Positions 17,593 to 26,352 of a stretch of DNA of 64,000 nt are shown in pieces. The DNA comes from Pseudochryseolinea flava. Its GTDB lineage: Bacteria; Bacteroidota; Bacteroidia; Cytophagales; Cyclobacteriaceae. The stretch is taken from contig NZ_QMFY01000011.1 in assembly GCF_003286915.1 (NCBI RefSeq), positions 124,001 to 188,000 of the forward strand, read 5' to 3'. A model generated the notes under the pieces. That model was not told where the DNA came from. It worked only from the letters and a program-made list of their open reading frames with translations, and did no database searches. Numbering within the stretch: the stretch's first letter is position 1; each line of letters begins with the position of its first letter. The translations under genes and the position numbers were made by a program.

Positions 17593-17672
17593 TTCGGTAA
17601 AAGTAATGTATCATTCGAAAATTATCTCATCCTACACCATTTACTATTTTCAACATCGTTTGAAAAATGAAC

Positions 17673-17703
17673 TTTGTTCAGATGCATGGGACTACTACCT
17701 TTG
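17673..17703 (+). promoter_or_regulatory. Bacteroidota promoter TTTG-N19-TACCTTTG
   Basis: The -33 element TTTG is at 17673-17676 and the -7 element TACCTTTG at 17696-17703, separated by exactly 19 bp, a full match to the consensus TTTG-N19-TAnnTTTG. The ATG at 17724 lies 20 bp beyond the -7 box, giving a leader of about 13 bases. Confidence 0.75.
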
Positions 17704-17723
17704 TTTCTTTCCCATCACACATT

Positions 17724-18311
17724 ATGGCTGAAGAAAATCAAGATCCAAAACTCGTTCCAATACCGCCAACGTTTCATGCGTCAGATACGGGAAAACCATT
17801 TGATCATTGCCTCATGTGCAATCAATATCTACTCGACGAAGGTACGCCGTACATGATTGAAAAAGCGGTGAAGCAACATCCGGAGATGAATGTCGTTGAA
17901 ACTATCTTTGAATATGCGATGTGTATGTTTTGCGCTATTCGAATGCATGAATCGTTAAGCGTGGAATCGCGCGAAAGGATCAGTGCATATTTCCAGTCGA
18001 ATGTAAATTTTGAAAAGCGACACTTTGATCTTTTGGGTCAAACCGATGACATCGCCAACTGGATTGGTAAATGCGCCGTGAAGCGCACGCCGATTTCAGA
18101 AAGTAGCGAGTACCAACTCGTTGCTCAATGTGAAGGCAAGAACTTGGTGTTTTCCGCGATGCCGTTTGCGTTATCGCTTGCCGCAATGGAAGAAATGTCG
18201 TCGCTTTTGAGCGCACAAAGTCTTGGTGAAATTGATGACTTTATTGGTAAGTATTTTTCTGGACCACCCGAAGTAGCTGCATTGTTGAAGAAAAAATTCG
18301 TAATGGTATAG
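17724..18311 (+). CDS. Unknown protein with two CxxC pairs, possible zinc site
   Basis: I chose ATG 17724 (195 residues, MAEENQDPKLVPIPPTFHAS) because the earlier in-frame ATG at 17667 precedes the promoter at 17673-17703. Residues HCLMCNQYLL and YAMCMFCAIRMHESLS give two CxxC pairs about 40 residues apart, a spacing suited to one structural zinc site. A helical C-terminal region ends with a hydrophobic tail. No signal peptide or membrane helix. I do not recognise the family. It ends 42 bp before a MocR-type regulator on the same strand, so the two may be cotranscribed. Confidence 0.75.
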   Translation: MAEENQDPKLVPIPPTFHASDTGKPFDHCLMCNQYLLDEGTPYMIEKAVKQHPEMNVVETIFEYAMCMFCAIRMHESLSVESRERISAYFQSNVNFEKRHFDLLGQTDDIANWIGKCAVKRTPISESSEYQLVAQCEGKNLVFSAMPFALSLAAMEEMSSLLSAQSLGEIDDFIGKYFSGPPEVAALLKKKFVMV

Positions 18312-18353
18312 CGATCGGTACAGATCGACGACAAATGGATATTGATTATTGCT

Positions 18354-19790
18354 ATGATTGATTTAAAAACAGATCACAAGTATAGCGAAGTTGCCGATCG
18401 CATTCAGTCATTGATCGACAAACGCATTTTGAAAGTTGGTGACAAGCTTCTTTCGGTTAGAGCTTTGAGCAAAGAACAAGGAATCAGTTTGAGTACTGCA
18501 TTCCAAGCATATTACTATTTAGAAAGTAAAGGGTTGATCGAGGCGCGTCCTCAAAGTGGCTATTATGTAAAATATTCTCCCGAACATGTCTTAGATCTCC
18601 CGCGCGTGTCGGACCCTATTGATGATGCTTTGCCCGTTGGTGTTGATGACATGATCAACAGTGTATATCTCGATCTTCGTTCTGAAAAGCTCTTGAATTT
18701 TTCCATGGCAGCACCGTCATTCTCGTTGCTACCAATCGCAAAGCTGAACAAAGCAGTAATGCATACGTTGCGCGAAACGGACGCAAGTTGTACCAATTAT
18801 GAGCATGTGCAAGGAAGCCTGCCCCTCCGAAAGCAAATTGTGAGACAAGCTTTTAATTGGGGAGGTAGAATTAACGAAGACGATGTCATCATCACGGCGG
18901 GCTGTGTCGAAGCTCTCTCACTCTGCATTAAGGCGATAACCAAACCTGGCGATGCTGTCGCGATCGAAAGCCCGACATATTTTGCAATCTTCCAGGTGAT
19001 GGAAAGTCATGGACTAAAAGTCGTGGAGATTCCTTCAGACCCACAGACAGGAATAGACCTCGATTATCTAGAACAAGCTATCCCGAGATTTGATATCAAG
19101 GCTTGTCTATTTGTACCGAACTTCAATAACCCATTAGGCAGTTGTATGCCCGACGAAAATAAAAAGCGCCTCGTCGATATGTTGGCGAAGAAAGAAATTC
19201 CACTTGTCGAAGATGACATTTACGGCGAGCTGTATTTTGGAAAGACTCGCCCAAAGACATGCAAGAGCTTCGATAAAAAAGGATTGGTATTGCATTGCAG
19301 TTCATTCTCAAAATCATTGGCGCCGGGCTATCGCATTGGATGGACTATTCCCGGAAGATTCAAAGAGAAAGTAATTCGCCTGAAAAGAATGCACACCGTC
19401 TCAACCAATACGCTCGCACAATCGGCTATTGCTAATTTTTTAGAGAACGGCCGCTATGAGCTACACCTTCGACACCTTCGGAAAGCTTTGCACACACAAG
19501 CACTCCGATATATGCAAGCTGTCTGCAAATACTTCCCAGAAGACACGCGCGTGACTAGACCGACAGGAGGTTTTATTTTGTGGATCGAAATGAATGAGAA
19601 AGTCAATGGATTTAAACTGCATAAGAAAGCGCTGAAACACAACATCGGCATTGCCCCTGGACAGATCTTTTCCGCGCAAGGGCAATTCGAAAACTGCTTC
19701 CGAATTAGCTACGGAGACCCGTGGAGCGAAAAAATTGAAGAAGGCATTAAAACCTTGGGAAAATTAGTCCGGGATTTCGGAGGTCGTTGA
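18354..19790 (+). CDS. MocR-type GntR regulator fused to class I aminotransferase fold
   Basis: I chose ATG 18354 (478 residues) rather than an in-frame TTG at 18342. The N-terminus (about 5-75) is a winged-helix GntR domain: YSEVADRIQSLIDKRILKVG, then SVRALSKEQGISLSTAFQAY. The C-terminal part is an aminotransferase-like domain with SPTYFAIFQVMES, FVPNFNNPLGSCMPD and the PLP-lysine segment HCSSFSKSLAPGYRIGW (K320). Proteins of this layout (PdxR, GabR, MocR) usually respond to PLP or an amino compound and control vitamin B6 or amino acid genes. The target genes are not evident nearby, apart from the unknown gene just upstream. Confidence 0.9.
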   Translation: MIDLKTDHKYSEVADRIQSLIDKRILKVGDKLLSVRALSKEQGISLSTAFQAYYYLESKGLIEARPQSGYYVKYSPEHVLDLPRVSDPIDDALPVGVDDMINSVYLDLRSEKLLNFSMAAPSFSLLPIAKLNKAVMHTLRETDASCTNYEHVQGSLPLRKQIVRQAFNWGGRINEDDVIITAGCVEALSLCIKAITKPGDAVAIESPTYFAIFQVMESHGLKVVEIPSDPQTGIDLDYLEQAIPRFDIKACLFVPNFNNPLGSCMPDENKKRLVDMLAKKEIPLVEDDIYGELYFGKTRPKTCKSFDKKGLVLHCSSFSKSLAPGYRIGWTIPGRFKEKVIRLKRMHTVSTNTLAQSAIANFLENGRYELHLRHLRKALHTQALRYMQAVCKYFPEDTRVTRPTGGFILWIEMNEKVNGFKLHKKALKHNIGIAPGQIFSAQGQFENCFRISYGDPWSEKIEEGIKTLGKLVRDFGGR

Positions 19791-19801
19791 TGGTTATGTT
19801 T

Positions 19802-19864
19802 CGTTAATCGTTAATCGTTAATCGTTAATCGTTAATCGTTAATCGTTAATCGTTAATCGTTAAT
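19802..19864. repeat. Nine-copy tandem heptamer CGTTAAT
   Basis: Nine exact, uninterrupted copies of CGTTAAT fill 63 bp between two convergent genes. The array ends one base before the stop codon of the caspase gene (19866-19868). Because the unit length is not a multiple of three and contains TTAA, stop codons occur in all six frames. It looks like a simple-sequence (slippage-prone) array; no mobile element is attached. Confidence 0.95.
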
Positions 19865-19865
19865 C

Positions 19866-22800
19866 TTATTTCTTTTCCATCACTGAGATTGGGAAGTCGT
19901 TTCCAGTGATATAACCTGTTGGATACTGCGCTTGTCCACCATATTGTTTGGTAAGGTCGGGAACACGTTCTTCCATGTACAGCTTAATTTCATTCACCGT
20001 AATCTTTTTATCACCATTGTCTGCTTTGCCGTCGAGTGCCTCAAGTAATGCATACGTAAATACACCGTGTTTCAGTTGCTCAAATTCGGTTGCAAATTGT
20101 TTCGATCCACTCGATGCGATCATCACTACGCCAGAGCTTCTTGCCAACTGAACGATAGCCTTTTCATCAGCTGCCGCAGCACGAACGTTCAATGACTTCA
20201 GCGCTCCTCCCGAATGACAAGCATCCATCAAGATTATTTGCTTCTGAGATTTCAGTTGTGTTAAGTAGCCCTTCAATTCTGTGGCAGAAATTCCTTTCGC
20301 GGTCAATTGTGTGGGATCGCCGTAAAGTTTTGTGATGTCCGTCGGCACAAGGTAATACTCTTCGTTCTTCTCTTCGTCGAGCGTTCCGTGCCCCGCATAA
20401 TAGAAAACAAAAACATCTTCTGGTTTCGCGCGATTGATGATCGACTTAAAGCCTGTCACGATATGATCCTTTGTTGCATCCTCATCATACACGGGAACAA
20501 CATTCACGCTTTTAAAAATTGTTTTACCATGATTTTCCAACGCCTTCACAAAAGATTCCGCATCACCACGCGCGTAATTCAGGTTGTATGCGGCGTTCTG
20601 ATATTTGTTGATCCCCACAGCGAGAACATGCAACGACGAAGTAGCAATCGCTTCACCGGTATAGTCGATTGTCAAAATATCTGGCTTAGATTCAATGCGC
20701 TGAAAATTAACAACCTTCACGCGGAACTCATTGGTCTCGTTCACCATCTCCACAGCATAAGTCTTCGACATCTTTTGACCTTCGCCCTTGGTTTTAAATT
20801 CTGTATCGCTAATGATTAGCTTATCGTTTTGATAGATGTCGATTTCCTTAATGCCACCACCGCCGTCGTAAACATCGATCGTGATTGGTATCGTTCTGGC
20901 TTGCGTAAAGAATTTACCCTTATCGTAACGCAGCAGATCCGTTTGTCGCATCGTTACAGAAATATCAAAAAATCCAACGGAGGGTCTATGCAGTTTGCTA
21001 AGGTCAAAGATACGTTCGCCTGATTCCCGTAAGATATCTTCGACACGTTTACCTTGCACAATACTTTTCGCCATCTCCTTCGGGCGATACAGTATTTCGA
21101 AGTATTGTTCTGCAGCATAGAAATCCGCGAGGTGATTTATGCCACGGTTCACGTGCCAACCAAAATACTGGCTACCCGACGATGAACATGAAAAATAACC
21201 ACGAGGTGTCCAGCAAACCCACTCGTTATCTTCCGTGAGAAAGAGCGTAGCAAAGGGTATGACCATCTCTCCCATTGATTTGTATGCAATCTCCAAATCT
21301 TTATAGGCCTTATTGCCATGTGTCTTCAAGAAGTCCATGACATCGCGCCATGCTTTTTTTGTTGGTTCCTTCGTGAGTGAATCGATGGGAAGTGAAGAAA
21401 AGAAATTCGACCAATCTTCGTCGGCAAAAACTTTGCGAAGCGACGGCGCATAACCTGTCTCATCCAGTTTCCATAAAATGATCGATTGGTCTTCACCGCC
21501 CGACGCTAAATACTTTCCATCACCAGTCACAGCAACTGCTCTCACAGCGCCATAGTGACCAACAAATTCCTTGCTGAGGAATCCATTCTTATCAAAAAGT
21601 TTCAATGCAAAATCACTCGCAACAAGAATATTGCCGTCGGCCATTACTTGATAATCCAGGATGCGGTCACTCGGATCAATTTCTATAACCTTTCCCTTGG
21701 GAAGTTCAAGAACATTGACAGCCGTTTGAACAACATCTTTATTCAGTGTTTTCGCAGTGGATGTTAATGCACCAGGATTTCTATTGACAGTAAGTGATGC
21801 AAAATCAAAACTCGATTTAAACTGCGGCTTACCATTGGCCGTTTGTTCACGACATACATAAAGATTCAGGCCTTCTCCAAAGGCAAGATCTTGAATGGCA
21901 CTCCCCTTACCTTTGATGCGTCGTACAGTCAGTCCGTTGATTGGATTCCACAATAAAATTTCATTGTTCATACCGCCTGCAGACGCCACTACGTAGTTAC
22001 CACTGGTAGACGGTGAAAATGCTGCGCTGAAAACTGTGTTATCGTGCGCCGTATAATTTGTAAAGAGCGTTCCCTTGGGAAGAGACCAGCTGAAACCTTT
22101 TCCAGAAACATTTAATCCGATCAAAATTTTCGAGTCAAAAGAAAAAGCAAGTGCATTGATGGGACTCGTGATCATCTCACTATCGCGTTCATCGCGCTCA
22201 GTCGGCTGTGGCGTGCTTTTGAATTCTACCATCACATGCCATTCGCCTTTATCATTTCGCTGCCAGAGACACATTTCATTCATCAGCGTGCTTGTAGCGA
22301 GATAACTACCATCGGGAGAATAAAGTAGTTTATTCAAAACACCTTTGTGGTGCTTCAACACTTTAGGCATAAACTTCGCCACACCTTGGTCAAGACCGAT
22401 CAGTGGAAAAATGAGAATGTCTTTGGCTTCATGCGCGACCGCCAATTCTTGGTTGATACTGTTGAACGACACGCATGCAACAGGCGAAGGAATTGTAAGT
22501 GTAGCTACAGAAGTTAGGGCAGGCTTATTTTCAATCTTCCAAACCTTCACGGTACGGTCGGCGCTACCGCTGGCGAGGTAGCGACCATCTTTGTTAAACG
22601 CAAGCGTAGTGATGATCTCAGAATGTCCAACAGCTGTTGCCACTTGAACACCTTTTTCGATATCGATTAAGACAATATAATTTTCTTTTTCTGTGCTCAC
22701 AGGGTAACCTGCTACAGCAAGAAGTTTTCCGTCGGGTGATATGGCTGAGGCATACAATACACCTTCTGAGCCGTCACCAACTTGTGACTCAAATTTCTTA

Positions 22801-23006
22801 GTCATCTCGCCATTGTCAACGTTCCAGATGCGAATGGTTTTATCTTCCGACACGGAGATAATGCGCGTACCATCGGGCGTGAACAACAGGTTGTTAATTT
22901 TGGCAGAGTGACCTAAAGGATTGATCACGATACGAGGAGCTTGCGCGACGGCGGTCGACGAAATAGCTACCAATATCAAGAAGAAAAAAGTATTGAGGCG
23001 CGCCAT
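19866..23006 (-). CDS. WD40-repeat caspase-like (C14) protease
   Basis: A 1046-residue exported protein with signal peptide MARLNTFFFLILVAISSTAVA. The N-terminal two thirds hold at least eight recognisable WD40 repeats, for example DGRYLASGSADRTVKVWKIE and DGKYLASGGEDQSIILWKLD, forming one or two propellers. A linker carries WTPRGYFSCSSSGSQYFGWH, a motif common in such proteins. The C-terminal domain (about 795-1046) is caspase-like: VGINKYQNAAYNLNYARGDA, YYAGHG with catalytic H873 and MDACHSGG with catalytic C930, both present. Such proteins may be involved in regulated proteolysis or cell death, but no substrate is known. It lies divergently from a subtilisin gene. Confidence 0.9.
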   Translation of the reverse strand: MARLNTFFFLILVAISSTAVAQAPRIVINPLGHSAKINNLLFTPDGTRIISVSEDKTIRIWNVDNGEMTKKFESQVGDGSEGVLYASAISPDGKLLAVAGYPVSTEKENYIVLIDIEKGVQVATAVGHSEIITTLAFNKDGRYLASGSADRTVKVWKIENKPALTSVATLTIPSPVACVSFNSINQELAVAHEAKDILIFPLIGLDQGVAKFMPKVLKHHKGVLNKLLYSPDGSYLATSTLMNEMCLWQRNDKGEWHVMVEFKSTPQPTERDERDSEMITSPINALAFSFDSKILIGLNVSGKGFSWSLPKGTLFTNYTAHDNTVFSAAFSPSTSGNYVVASAGGMNNEILLWNPINGLTVRRIKGKGSAIQDLAFGEGLNLYVCREQTANGKPQFKSSFDFASLTVNRNPGALTSTAKTLNKDVVQTAVNVLELPKGKVIEIDPSDRILDYQVMADGNILVASDFALKLFDKNGFLSKEFVGHYGAVRAVAVTGDGKYLASGGEDQSIILWKLDETGYAPSLRKVFADEDWSNFFSSLPIDSLTKEPTKKAWRDVMDFLKTHGNKAYKDLEIAYKSMGEMVIPFATLFLTEDNEWVCWTPRGYFSCSSSGSQYFGWHVNRGINHLADFYAAEQYFEILYRPKEMAKSIVQGKRVEDILRESGERIFDLSKLHRPSVGFFDISVTMRQTDLLRYDKGKFFTQARTIPITIDVYDGGGGIKEIDIYQNDKLIISDTEFKTKGEGQKMSKTYAVEMVNETNEFRVKVVNFQRIESKPDILTIDYTGEAIATSSLHVLAVGINKYQNAAYNLNYARGDAESFVKALENHGKTIFKSVNVVPVYDEDATKDHIVTGFKSIINRAKPEDVFVFYYAGHGTLDEEKNEEYYLVPTDITKLYGDPTQLTAKGISATELKGYLTQLKSQKQIILMDACHSGGALKSLNVRAAAADEKAIVQLARSSGVVMIASSGSKQFATEFEQLKHGVFTYALLEALDGKADNGDKKITVNEIKLYMEERVPDLTKQYGGQAQYPTGYITGNDFPISVMEKK

Positions 23007-23076
23007 AAAATTTCCGGGATAACTGGGTAAAGTTATCTAAATTTTATGGGGATTGCGAATTACGTTTCGCAGGTAA

Positions 23077-23100
23077 AAAACCCTTATAAAGGAGGGTTTT
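23077..23100. terminator. Hairpin, weak bidirectional terminator candidate
   Basis: AAAACCCT (23077-23084) pairs with AGGGTTTT (23093-23100) around an 8-base loop. It could stop transcripts of the small frame at 23132-23278, which runs towards it on the minus strand, before they enter the caspase leader. The GC part is only three pairs, so it is weak. Confidence 0.35.
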
Positions 23101-23131
23101 ACGTGGCGGTAAAAAATAAGATTGGCTCGAA

Positions 23132-23278
23132 TTATGCGTGTTTAGTCACCTTGTGAGGCCAAAGGTAATTGTCATTACTCTTCGCTACATCCCGGCGCTC
23201 CACAGCATTGTTCAACCTATCCACCTGCCAGAAGAAGACACCAAAAAATCCAATTACTGAGATAAAGACTAAAATCAT
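23132..23278 (-). CDS. Possible small one-helix membrane protein (48 aa) or gene remnant
   Basis: A minus-strand frame from ATG 23278 gives 48 residues starting with a hydrophobic helix (MILVFISVIGFFGVFFW) and a charged tail (QVDRLNNAVERRDVAKSN). The same frame stays open upstream to 23443 without any ATG, GTG or TTG, and reads protein-like there (DDYNPFAARKQAIFVEPKPN). It may be a real tiny membrane protein, a gene with a rare start, or the 3' remnant of a longer gene. No family is recognised. Confidence 0.3.
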   Translation of the reverse strand: MILVFISVIGFFGVFFWQVDRLNNAVERRDVAKSNDNYLWPHKVTKHA

Positions 23279-23481
23279 ATTCGTAGTGTTTGGTTTTGGT
23301 TCTACAAAGATGGCCTGTTTCCGAGCGGCGAACGGGTTATAGTCGTCGCTTCCAGCACAGAAGTAAGATCGGTTGAGGATTTGTAAATTTTTGAGCAGAG
23401 GAGACCGCCAGTGTAAATGCGCATGATTTTGACTATACTCAAGCTATCTTGCATCCTAGTTGAATTGAAAACCAATGAATT

Positions 23482-25170
23482 ATGAGTATTAATAAAGGAA
23501 ACAGGGCAATGTTGTGGACCGCTGCCCTGATGTTGACGACGACGGTGACCGTTTCCGCACAGGACGCCATTTCCACCCCGAAAGACTGGTTTTTACGCGA
23601 TCCTGAAGCAGATTCGCTGTTGGGCGTGAGCGCCGAAAAAACATATCAGACGCTTTTAAAGGGCAAACCTTCACGTACTGTTTTGGTCGCCGTAATTGAT
23701 TCCGGAATTGATATTGAGCATGAAGACCTGAAAGATATTATCTGGATCAACGAAGACGAGATTCCCGGAAACAATATCGACGACGACAAAAACGGCTACG
23801 TTGACGATATCCACGGATGGAATTTTATTGGTGGAAAAAATGGCAACGTTGCAGAAGACACCTACGAAGTGACGCGAGAATACGCGCGCTTGAAACCCAA
23901 GTTTGAATCTATCGATTCAACGAAAGTTGGAAAGAAAGACAAAGCTGAATATGCGTACTGGAAAAAAGTAAAGAAGAAATACGACAACGACTTTAGCCAC
24001 AACAAAAAACAATACGACGAATACAAGAAGTATTATGAGCAATACACTGCGCTTCACCAGAACCTTAGCTACTTCGACAGTTTGTTGGAAGCACGCATGG
24101 GGAAACCAACAACGAAGCAGTCGTTAGAAGGATTTACAACAAGCAACGACACGTTAAATTACGCGAAGGAATCTTTGTTGCAGATCATGGACCGTGTGGG
24201 AAGTCAACTTCAAGTGGAGCTAACCGGTCAAGAACTGGTGGCTATGCTGAAAGAAAACATCGCTCAAATTCAAGAGGGTATTGATCATTTTCGTGTTGCT
24301 GTTGAATACGGCTACAACACAGAATTTAATCCACGTACAGTAGTGGGTGATGATCCAAAAAATCTTACACAGAAAGGTTATGGCAACAACGATGTAGAGG
24401 GGCCTGACGCAAAGCATGGAACACACGTTGCTGGAATTATCGGCGCCGATCGCAAAAATACATTGGGTATCCGCGGTATCGCCGACAATGTTCGCATCAT
24501 GTCTATACGTGCTGTGCCGAATGGTGATGAACGTGATAAGGATATTGCAAACGCAATCATTTACGCGGCGGATAACGGCGCGAAAATCATCAACATGAGT
24601 TTCGGTAAATCATTTTCGCCTAACAAAGAGTTAGTAGACAAAGCCGTAAAATATGCAGAATCGAAAGGTGTGTTATTGATTCACGCTGCTGGTAACGACG
24701 GCGACAACCTCGACGAAAAAGATAATTTTCCGAACCGTGATTTCAGCGCTGGTGGAAATGCAAAGAACTGGCTTGAAATTGGCGCATCGGCTTGGGGCAA
24801 AGACAAAGACTTCGTTGGCTCTTTCTCTAACTATGGAAAAAAATCAGTTGATCTTTTTGCACCAGGCGTACAAATTTATTCGACAACGCCAGGCAATCAA
24901 TATGAAGACCTCCAAGGAACAAGTATGGCATGTCCTGCAACGTCGGGCGTCGCAGCGATGTTGATGTCATATTTCCCAGACCTTACGGCTGCAGAAGTAA
25001 AAGACATCTTGCGTCAATCGACACGTAAATTCGATGGCTTGAAGGTGGTGGTACCAGGCGGTAAAGATGAAGTTTCCTTCAGTGAGTTAAGCAGCACAGG
25101 CGGATTGGTGAACGCGTACGACGCTGTGGCACTTGCGATGAAGTATAAAAAACAACCCGCTTCGAAATAG
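23482..25170 (+). CDS. Subtilisin-like serine protease (S8), secreted
   Basis: A 562-residue exported protease; the N-terminus has a signal peptide ending near VTVSAQD (about residue 26). The catalytic triad is intact: D73 in VLVAVIDSGIDIEH, H312 in HGTHVAGIIGA and S481 in GTSMACPATSGVAAML; the oxyanion Asn is N405 in HAAGNDGD. Between D and H is an insertion of about 190 residues, rich in Lys, Tyr and Glu, probably helical, that ordinary subtilisins lack; similar insertions are typical of Bacteroidota S8 proteins. No pro-domain or sorting domain is seen. It is divergent from the caspase gene and is followed by a strong terminator. Confidence 0.93.
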   Translation: MSINKGNRAMLWTAALMLTTTVTVSAQDAISTPKDWFLRDPEADSLLGVSAEKTYQTLLKGKPSRTVLVAVIDSGIDIEHEDLKDIIWINEDEIPGNNIDDDKNGYVDDIHGWNFIGGKNGNVAEDTYEVTREYARLKPKFESIDSTKVGKKDKAEYAYWKKVKKKYDNDFSHNKKQYDEYKKYYEQYTALHQNLSYFDSLLEARMGKPTTKQSLEGFTTSNDTLNYAKESLLQIMDRVGSQLQVELTGQELVAMLKENIAQIQEGIDHFRVAVEYGYNTEFNPRTVVGDDPKNLTQKGYGNNDVEGPDAKHGTHVAGIIGADRKNTLGIRGIADNVRIMSIRAVPNGDERDKDIANAIIYAADNGAKIINMSFGKSFSPNKELVDKAVKYAESKGVLLIHAAGNDGDNLDEKDNFPNRDFSAGGNAKNWLEIGASAWGKDKDFVGSFSNYGKKSVDLFAPGVQIYSTTPGNQYEDLQGTSMACPATSGVAAMLMSYFPDLTAAEVKDILRQSTRKFDGLKVVVPGGKDEVSFSELSSTGGLVNAYDAVALAMKYKKQPASK

Positions 25171-25208
25171 CGTACACAAAACGTCCGCTTACGATACAAA
25201 ACCAGTAT

Positions 25209-25244
25209 AAAAAAGGTGCAGCGAAAAATTTCTGCACCTTTTTT
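25209..25244 (+). terminator. Strong intrinsic terminator after the subtilisin gene
   Basis: A perfect 13 bp stem, AAAAAAGGTGCAG (25209-25221) with CTGCACCTTTTTT (25232-25244), around a 10-base loop and ending in a T run. It lies 38 bp after the protease stop. The A-tract on the other arm makes it potentially bidirectional. Confidence 0.9.
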
Positions 25245-25440
25245 CATTGGCAAAAATGAAAAAATACCTCGTCTAAAGGGATAAACAAATTTCATAATTA
25301 CCGATTCATCTACCGACATTGGCTGTAACCTTCTAACCCAACTGAAATAGTAGACTTTTTGAAGTGAAATAAAATCAGCCTTAACGCGTGTACTGCCGCT
25401 TTCAGTAGACATGTAGCTTTCTTCACAAATGCAGTAAGTG

Positions 25441-26352
25441 ATGAAGGCGTTCATAAAGTTTTTTTTCCTCCCCATAGTGTTGGTGATTTTGTTCACCTTC
25501 ACTTCGTTCTCAGCTCCACGGCCTGGTTTTTACATTCCGGAACCCATCGAAGAAGTATCATTTCGTTACAAGATGGCAAACAATCTTATTGTTCTCCCTG
25601 TCACCATCAATGATAGTATCAACATCAATTTGATTTTAGATACAGGGTGTCGAAACCTCGTACTCTTTGGAAAGCGCTTCCAAAAACTGTTAAATTTCGA
25701 CCCGAAAAAGGTTGTGCAATTTTCTGGTCTTGGATCTGGTAGCGCTGTTGTCGGAAAACTTTCGCTTCATAATAAGGTATCCATCGATCAAGTGATCGGC
25801 GAAGAAATTCCGATTGTTGTGATAGAAAAGAGAAACCTCTTTCAGACCTTCGACCAAGTTCATGGTGTTATCGGCTATGACATCTTCACAAAGTTCGAAG
25901 TAGAAATCAATCCGTCAACCCAGATGATCACGTTCCGACCAGCCGCTTCAGCGACACTTTCATCCGAATTTCAACAAGTTCCAATCCGAGTCGAAGACTC
26001 TAGGCCCTTGATTGATTGTCGTGTGGTGTTCACGAAAGACAAAACACATATCTGTGATTTGATGATCGACACCGGCTCTGCATTAGGATTGTTGCTAAAA
26101 ACTACGGACATCGACCAATACTCCTATAACGGAAGAAGAGCGCTACTTGGACGTGGCTTGAATGGCGAGATTCATGGCTTGGTAACAACTACAGAAAAGT
26201 TGATCGTGAGTAATTTCGAGATGAAAAATCTCTCCACCGGCATCATTCAATCGCCGTGGCATAATTACGCATCGATCGGAATGGATGTATTAAAAGATTA
26301 CAGCATCGTACTGAATTATTGCAAAGGCTACGCTGGCTTTAAAAAAGTGTAA
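25441..26352 (+). CDS. Retropepsin-like aspartyl protease with two DTG motifs
   Basis: I chose ATG 25441 (303 residues); a GTG directly before it (25438) would add one residue. An N-terminal signal peptide or membrane anchor (about 5-24) is followed by two aspartyl protease-like halves: NLILDTGCRNLVLFG with D67, then GVIGYDIF (142-149) as the end of lobe one, and LMIDTGSALGLLL with D210, then IGMDVLKDYSIVLNY as the end of lobe two. Retropepsins act as dimers of one-DTG chains; here both lobes are in one chain, as in pepsins, though the sequence type is retropepsin-like. Exported; the substrate is unknown. It is the third protease gene in a row. Confidence 0.82.
   Translation: MKAFIKFFFLPIVLVILFTFTSFSAPRPGFYIPEPIEEVSFRYKMANNLIVLPVTINDSININLILDTGCRNLVLFGKRFQKLLNFDPKKVVQFSGLGSGSAVVGKLSLHNKVSIDQVIGEEIPIVVIEKRNLFQTFDQVHGVIGYDIFTKFEVEINPSTQMITFRPAASATLSSEFQQVPIRVEDSRPLIDCRVVFTKDKTHICDLMIDTGSALGLLLKTTDIDQYSYNGRRALLGRGLNGEIHGLVTTTEKLIVSNFEMKNLSTGIIQSPWHNYASIGMDVLKDYSIVLNYCKGYAGFKKV

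Follow-up and report, generated by a model that had tools for sequence, protein, structure and literature searches.

Three protease genes of different catalytic classes lie side by side in the genome of the bacteroidete Pseudochryseolinea flava, which raises the question of whether they form one system. They lie in a window of 64,000 nucleotides (contig NZ_QMFY01000011.1, positions 124,001 to 188,000), where a caspase homolog of family C14 with WD40 repeats, a subtilase of family S8 and a retropepsin-like aspartyl protease are encoded between positions 19866 and 26352. A first-pass annotation, made from the sequence alone, had described them as adjoining exported proteases with all catalytic residues present, the first two divergent from a single gap of 475 bp, and had proposed a proteolytic cascade and an undescribed system. 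Its descriptive part is borne out: open reading frames (ORFs) and Pfam matches identify the three genes as C14, S8 and Asp_protease_2, alignments and residue positions confirm the catalytic residues, and the gap measures 475 bp between the start codons. Likewise, all three proteins have signal-peptide-like starts, a call made throughout with a rough heuristic of our own, not a trained predictor. As to the system itself, the window locus is a conserved divergent protease pair, caspase and S8, with a genus-level third gene, and not a three-protease system.

Bacterial caspase homologs seem to be treated mainly as proteases of the cytoplasm that act in cell death or defence. An exported WD40-caspase that is conserved and has a stable protease neighbor offers a concrete, testable pair for studying periplasmic roles of caspases, and within the apparent trio it is the caspase and S8, not the aspartyl protease, that are worth testing first.

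The caspase and the subtilase

The caspase homolog (19866–23006, minus strand; 1046 residues), described from its ORF, Pfam matches and an alignment of 12 orthologs, comprises a signal peptide, a WD40 propeller region (residues ~31–515), a conserved middle part, a β-rich segment (~700–770) and the caspase domain (794–1030). Among the best 25 of 34 Pfam families, Peptidase_C14 (PF00656, E 1.8e-20) covers residues 794–1030 and WD40 repeats (PF00400, E 3.9e-39) occur in the same chain. The catalytic residues His873 (YAGHG; codon 20388–20390, minus strand) and Cys930 (DACHSG; codon 20217–20219, minus strand) are each kept in 41 of 41 aligned caspases. In the AlphaFold model, with a mean predicted local distance difference test (pLDDT) score of 64.6, WD40-like strands extend up to residue ~513 and are followed by a low-confidence middle, the β-rich segment and a partly modeled caspase domain, the propeller part scoring above the remainder. 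In Foldseek, the solved structures matched best are WD40 propellers, with 2ymu at the top and Apaf-1 at ranks 36 and 42.

The S8 protein (23482–25170, plus strand; 562 residues) has a signal peptide and, according to Pfam, alignment and AlphaFold, a helical insert between its catalytic Asp and His. The triad and the oxyanion Asn (D73, H312, N405 and S481) are kept in all 51 aligned S8 proteins, in which the Asp-to-His spacing ranges from 214 to 239 residues. Its AlphaFold model has a whole-model pLDDT of 58.3, with helices within residues 127–287; the insert helices (131–260) reach block values of 76–89, and the model is poor outside the insert. No propeptide family matched the S8 protein at a Pfam E-value ≤ 0.001, and no type IX secretion system (T9SS) sorting domain was matched by Pfam on it or on the aspartyl protein. 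Signal-peptide-like N-termini are present in 40 of 41 caspases, 51/51 S8 proteins and 11/11 aspartyl proteins; the sole exception, the caspase of genome G482, is truncated at a contig end.

Conservation of the neighborhood

At family level, the caspase occurs in 46 of 390 genomes. For 45 caspase genes, a set that excludes G401, the 5′ neighbor is a divergent S8 gene in 26, an Nramp-type gene in 10 (label based on PF01566 on one gene), an extracytoplasmic function (ECF)-sigma-like gene in two (labeled by eye), another gene in five and a contig edge in two. Searching named genomes for the caspase gave 14 loci, 11 of them with a divergent S8 ortholog of 58–62% identity. The remaining three are L064, where the caspase lacks an S8 neighbor, L072, which ends at a contig edge, and L074, a distant Verrucomicrobiales relative. 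The named loci and the genomes behind the 45 genes lie partly on the same contigs, and the two counts are therefore never added.

The caspase stands opposite S8 in five genera, and this arrangement persists while the outer genes change. In comparisons of locus pairs between genera, the gene outside S8 belongs to the same family in two of 160 pairs, in both cases the aspartyl gene. Beyond the caspase, the nearest and the next gene each match in 24 of 151 pairs (a PorP/SprF gene and its neighbor), and five other flanking positions match in 0 of 63–142 pairs. The caspase-S8 pair is thus an island amid changing surroundings, and its adjacency in five genera, together with the exchange of outer neighbors, indicates a real neighborhood.

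Chance is a poor account of this arrangement. The genome of the window (G000; 6.54 Mb, completeness 99.27) encodes eight S8, three C14 and two Asp_protease_2 proteins, and no C14 match other than the window caspase lies within 100 kb of any S8 match. If ~5,500 genes are assumed, 0.009 immediate C14/S8 neighbors would be expected; this figure is post hoc, and the conservation of the pair across genera is the stronger evidence.

The trio fares differently. All three genes occur together in only three of the 26 linked loci (G000, G407 and G464), two further loci being unreadable on the aspartyl side; in the named-genome scan, L062, from a metagenome-assembled genome of Chryseolinea, is the one locus of 14 that also has the aspartyl gene. 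Of the neighborhood whose conservation the first-pass annotation had proposed to check, the caspase-S8 part stands (26 of 45), and the trio does not. We reject the trio as a unit, both on this count and because S8 and the aspartyl gene occur without the caspase in six congeners.

The aspartyl protease follows the subtilase

The aspartyl protease gene (25438–26352, plus strand; 304 residues from a GTG start) matches Asp_protease_2 in Pfam with 48.3 bits against a cut-off of 24.3. It encodes two DTG motifs, at residues 68 and 211 (25639–25647 and 26068–26076, plus strand), which are present in 11 of 11 aspartyl proteins. The gene lies behind S8 in 11 genomes, which represent two genera, and eight of these genomes have no linked caspase; it accompanies the S8 gene and not the caspase.

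In the six congeners, G001–G006, the gene order is mocR, S8 and aspartyl gene, with mocR directly upstream of S8 in place of the caspase. No caspase ortholog was found in them at E ≤ 1e-110, and the best match is a paralog of 38–42% identity elsewhere in the genome; S8 is retained in all six. The S8 tree groups G000 with G001–G006 and genomes of genus g142, and loss of the caspase in the congeners is therefore the simpler reading. Two of these g142 genomes have a linked caspase, and some of the forks are weakly supported.

Origin of the pairing

Trees were built from 41 caspases of at least 850 residues, with a quick method, and from 51 S8 proteins; the Shimodaira–Hasegawa-like approximate likelihood ratio test (SH-aLRT) is their sole measure of branch support, and they include some long branches. 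In the caspase tree, the S8-linked genes fall within one well-supported group of 27, and the deeper branches are mostly Nramp-linked. This group includes four caspases for which no S8 linkage is seen: G497, G541, G612 and G679, the last at a contig edge. In the S8 tree, all 25 linked rows fall into one clade of 38, together with nine from caspase-less genomes and four with a caspase elsewhere, and the catalytic residues are retained throughout the clade, including the caspase-less rows. The caspase-less rows come from 14 genomes chosen by best S8 hits among many S8 genomes without a caspase. The S8-linkage label changes three times on the caspase tree and six times on the S8 tree, which would most simply reflect one gain and later losses; the aspartyl-gene label changes once on the S8 tree.

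As a separate observation, the caspases of G541 (genus g142; L192), G612 (L193) and G679 (L135), the latter two of genus g16, cluster across genera, and those of G541 and G612 lie away from the S8 locus. This clustering suggests horizontal movement.

The divergent intergenic region

The intergenic region (23007–23481) is 475 bp long in the window and measures 202–486 bp across the 26 linked loci, taken from unrefined ORF starts. On the S8 side, a motif chosen by visual inspection of these sequences, ACNGAAGTAA-N13-TTTG (23357–23383, plus strand), lies 98 nt before the S8 ATG. GAAGTAA occurs upstream of 18 of 25 linked S8 genes, eight of nine from caspase-less genomes (six at the same place) and one of six with the caspase elsewhere, with eleven S8 records excluded for lack of a start anchor; the S8 upstream element is thus present also without the caspase. 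Searched in full, the element matches G000 exactly at a single site, the one at S8, and a reversed control pattern matches twice; in 19 genomes the element has 20 matches, of which five are located at the S8 gene, and the control has ten. No wide regulon is seen by this measure, and the element, found in several genera, is possibly a promoter of unusual type.

On the caspase side, TAnnTTTR-like sequences recur by eye upstream of S8-linked and Nramp-linked genes alike. Inverted repeats are found upstream of 25 of 37 caspase genes (8.8 in plain shuffles), with 8 of the 45 genes excluded as having no usable upstream stretch; they differ between genera and overlap AT-rich, promoter-like sequence. 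A two-part Bacteroidetes promoter pattern had no match in the 26 intergenic regions.

Tests of functional coupling

Several comparisons addressed whether the two proteins are coupled beyond their adjacency. Once rpoB is accounted for, caspase and S8 distances show no covariation across 19 of the 22 genomes searched for rpoB (partial r 0.11, permutation p 0.25). Likewise, no column in the alignment of 51 S8 proteins separates linked from unlinked forms, and mean Asp-to-His spacing does not differ (linked 224, unlinked 223, caspase-less 227 residues). We also considered the linked S8 proteins as a specialized form and rejected this, as the five columns passing a loose filter are conservative or common among unlinked S8 proteins. 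Co-occurrence gives a mixed picture: S8 is kept in six of six caspase-less congeners, yet G156 (genus g16) lacks both genes. At order level, the caspase is found in eight of 390 genomes (E ≤ 1e-110) and S8 in 200 of 390 (E ≤ 1e-90), with S8 in seven of the eight; at E ≤ 1e-60, S8 is found in 35 of 40 caspase genomes searched.

What may keep the pair together

The explanation that we favor, with about as much doubt as belief, is that these are two co-located exported proteases serving a common compartment, with the genes kept together for joint supply and the caspase as an accessory that has often been lost. The caspase would have arrived opposite S8 once and then been lost several times. Both proteins would be exported by the Sec pathway and retained in the periplasm, where S8 may serve as an envelope protease able to act alone and the caspase as an accessory protease that, from family knowledge (PMC5756287), would cleave after Arg or Lys; its WD40 propellers may restrain and aim it. 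The genes would stay adjacent for joint supply under some condition, from separate promoters, and neither protease would need processing by its partner. Several points weigh against this proposal. The adjacency measure conditions on loci that are already linked, and most of the 25 linked S8 rows (16) belong to a single genus, g16. The missing covariation and the joint absence from G156 do not favor it either. The caspase-less rows, picked for a close S8, are no measure of the rate at which S8 is lost. Finally, a single origin is simplest and not proven, because the starred branches force at least two changes on the caspase tree and at least four on the S8 tree.

Much of the same evidence would fit neutral hitch-hiking, in which the caspase landed opposite S8 once and the adjacency persists only because both genes suffer from a break in the short promoter region between them, with no shared function. 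The trees are compatible with a single origin, S8 persists in all six caspase-less congeners, rates do not covary, linked S8 proteins carry no diagnostic residues, and the two genes have separate upstream elements. We nevertheless consider hitch-hiking somewhat unlikely, as the adjacency is found in five genera although nearly all other positions exchange neighbors. The cascade of the first-pass annotation, in which a WD40-switched caspase cleaves and activates or restrains S8, perhaps at the helical insert, and the aspartyl protease acts later in the series, appears improbable. The conserved divergent pairing, the long insert with its conserved Lys/Arg positions and the lack of both genes in G156 speak for it, but S8 proteins without a caspase share the insert length and most of these basic positions. 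Furthermore, only seven of the 200 S8 genomes in the order have the caspase, 5/40 caspase genomes lack S8 at E ≤ 1e-60, rates do not covary, and the link between the aspartyl gene and S8 does not depend on the caspase. The cascade claim is left unsupported by S8 in the six congeners, by the absence of any residue specific to linked S8 proteins and by the covariation result. A bolder version, in which an extracytoplasmic WD40-caspase would sense faults in envelope or secreted proteins and switch on an S8 with an autoinhibitory insert, an APAF-1/caspase-like logic in one bacteroidete clade, strikes us as more doubtful still.

Least probable of all, in our view, is an anti-phage or programmed-death module, for instance a gasdermin system, in which caspase and subtilase activate an effector. 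PADLOC models do match the C14 protein (caspase 4.2e-20, HEAT-ARM_XIII 1.4e-13), the S8 protein (subtilase 1.6e-30, IetS 1.2e-9) and the aspartyl protein (candidate model PDC-M08B 1.3e-8), and we take the caspase and subtilase models to belong to gasdermin systems; an NCBIfam S8 anti-phage model also matched, with 22 bits, far under its 900-bit cut-off. However, all three proteins have signal peptides, the PADLOC matches of the five genes at 17667–26352 include no pore-former, gasdermin or NTPase, and the flanks of the orthologs are mostly unshared. Phage cargo was also considered and is not supported: six of 49 pattern-matched viral-contig stretches encode C14 relatives, of 23–31% identity and matching the caspase domain only.

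Relation to known protease families

Like WD40-type prokaryotic caspase homologs (metacaspases or orthocaspases), the window caspase combines a C14 His/Cys dyad with WD40 repeats; its group differs in pairing with a divergent S8 in five genera, and it has no NACHT domain among the best 25 Pfam families. According to a 2012 survey, WD40 is among the four commonest partner domains (73 sequences, 10.9%), and 46 sequences carry a helix at the N-terminus that possibly represents a signal peptide (PMC3501461); cyanobacterial caspase homologs are described with 7–15 WD40 copies (PMC2853523). The S8 protein shares PF00082 and the Asp/His/Ser triad plus oxyanion Asn with its family, including relatives of solved structure such as deseasin MCP-01 (3vv3, E 4.8e-37), and its group is set apart by the long Asp-to-His stretch with the predicted helical insert and by the missing propeptide match. 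The aspartyl protein has two DTG motifs per chain, as do bacterial retropepsin-like proteases; a paralog in G000 (L224, 9393–10622) carries a PDZ domain, which Pfam does not match on the window protein. Every component is thus a known kind of protein, and to call the locus an undescribed system was an overstatement; only the caspase-S8 linkage may be new. Our literature search, with most subscription journals outside its coverage, found nothing on an exported C14-S8 pair or on a caspase beside PorP/SprF.

Other neighbors and paralogs

In the window, the caspase converges with a MocR-type (GntR-aminotransferase) regulator identified by family matches (18342–19790, plus strand), and a 214-residue protein (17667–18311) has no match in Pfam, NCBIfam or PADLOC. 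In other genera, an Nramp-type metal transporter gene diverges from ten caspase orthologs (L124, L125, L183, L184, L186–L188 and L214–L216), with gaps of −10 to 140 bp between ORF starts.

A PorP/SprF gene, assigned through PF11751 on one gene, is the convergent 3′ neighbor of the caspase in 14 of 39 readable genes (nine S8-linked, three Nramp-linked and two others), though not in the window. In the five loci examined (L110, 634–7205; L063, L069, L125 and L127), a large exported protein always follows, with a smaller protein in between in four; in L110, a CHU_C domain is found in the smaller protein and an S74 domain in the large one. The PorP/SprF label requires nine changes on the caspase tree, so the linkage is either ancient with many losses or repeatedly gained.

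In L212 (G698; the contig of L073), the caspase is split into several short ORFs by frameshifts or assembly errors, and the adjoining S8 is open. G000 also encodes a caspase paralog with 39% identity over the C-terminal part and a different gene context. A second WD40-caspase of this genome (L222, 9244–12489; contig C48) has DACQSG in place of DACHSG and lies directly 3′ of cdaA (diadenylate cyclase, PF02457) and a folP-like gene (labeled by eye), an order that recurs in the congener G005 (L223, 8709–11927).

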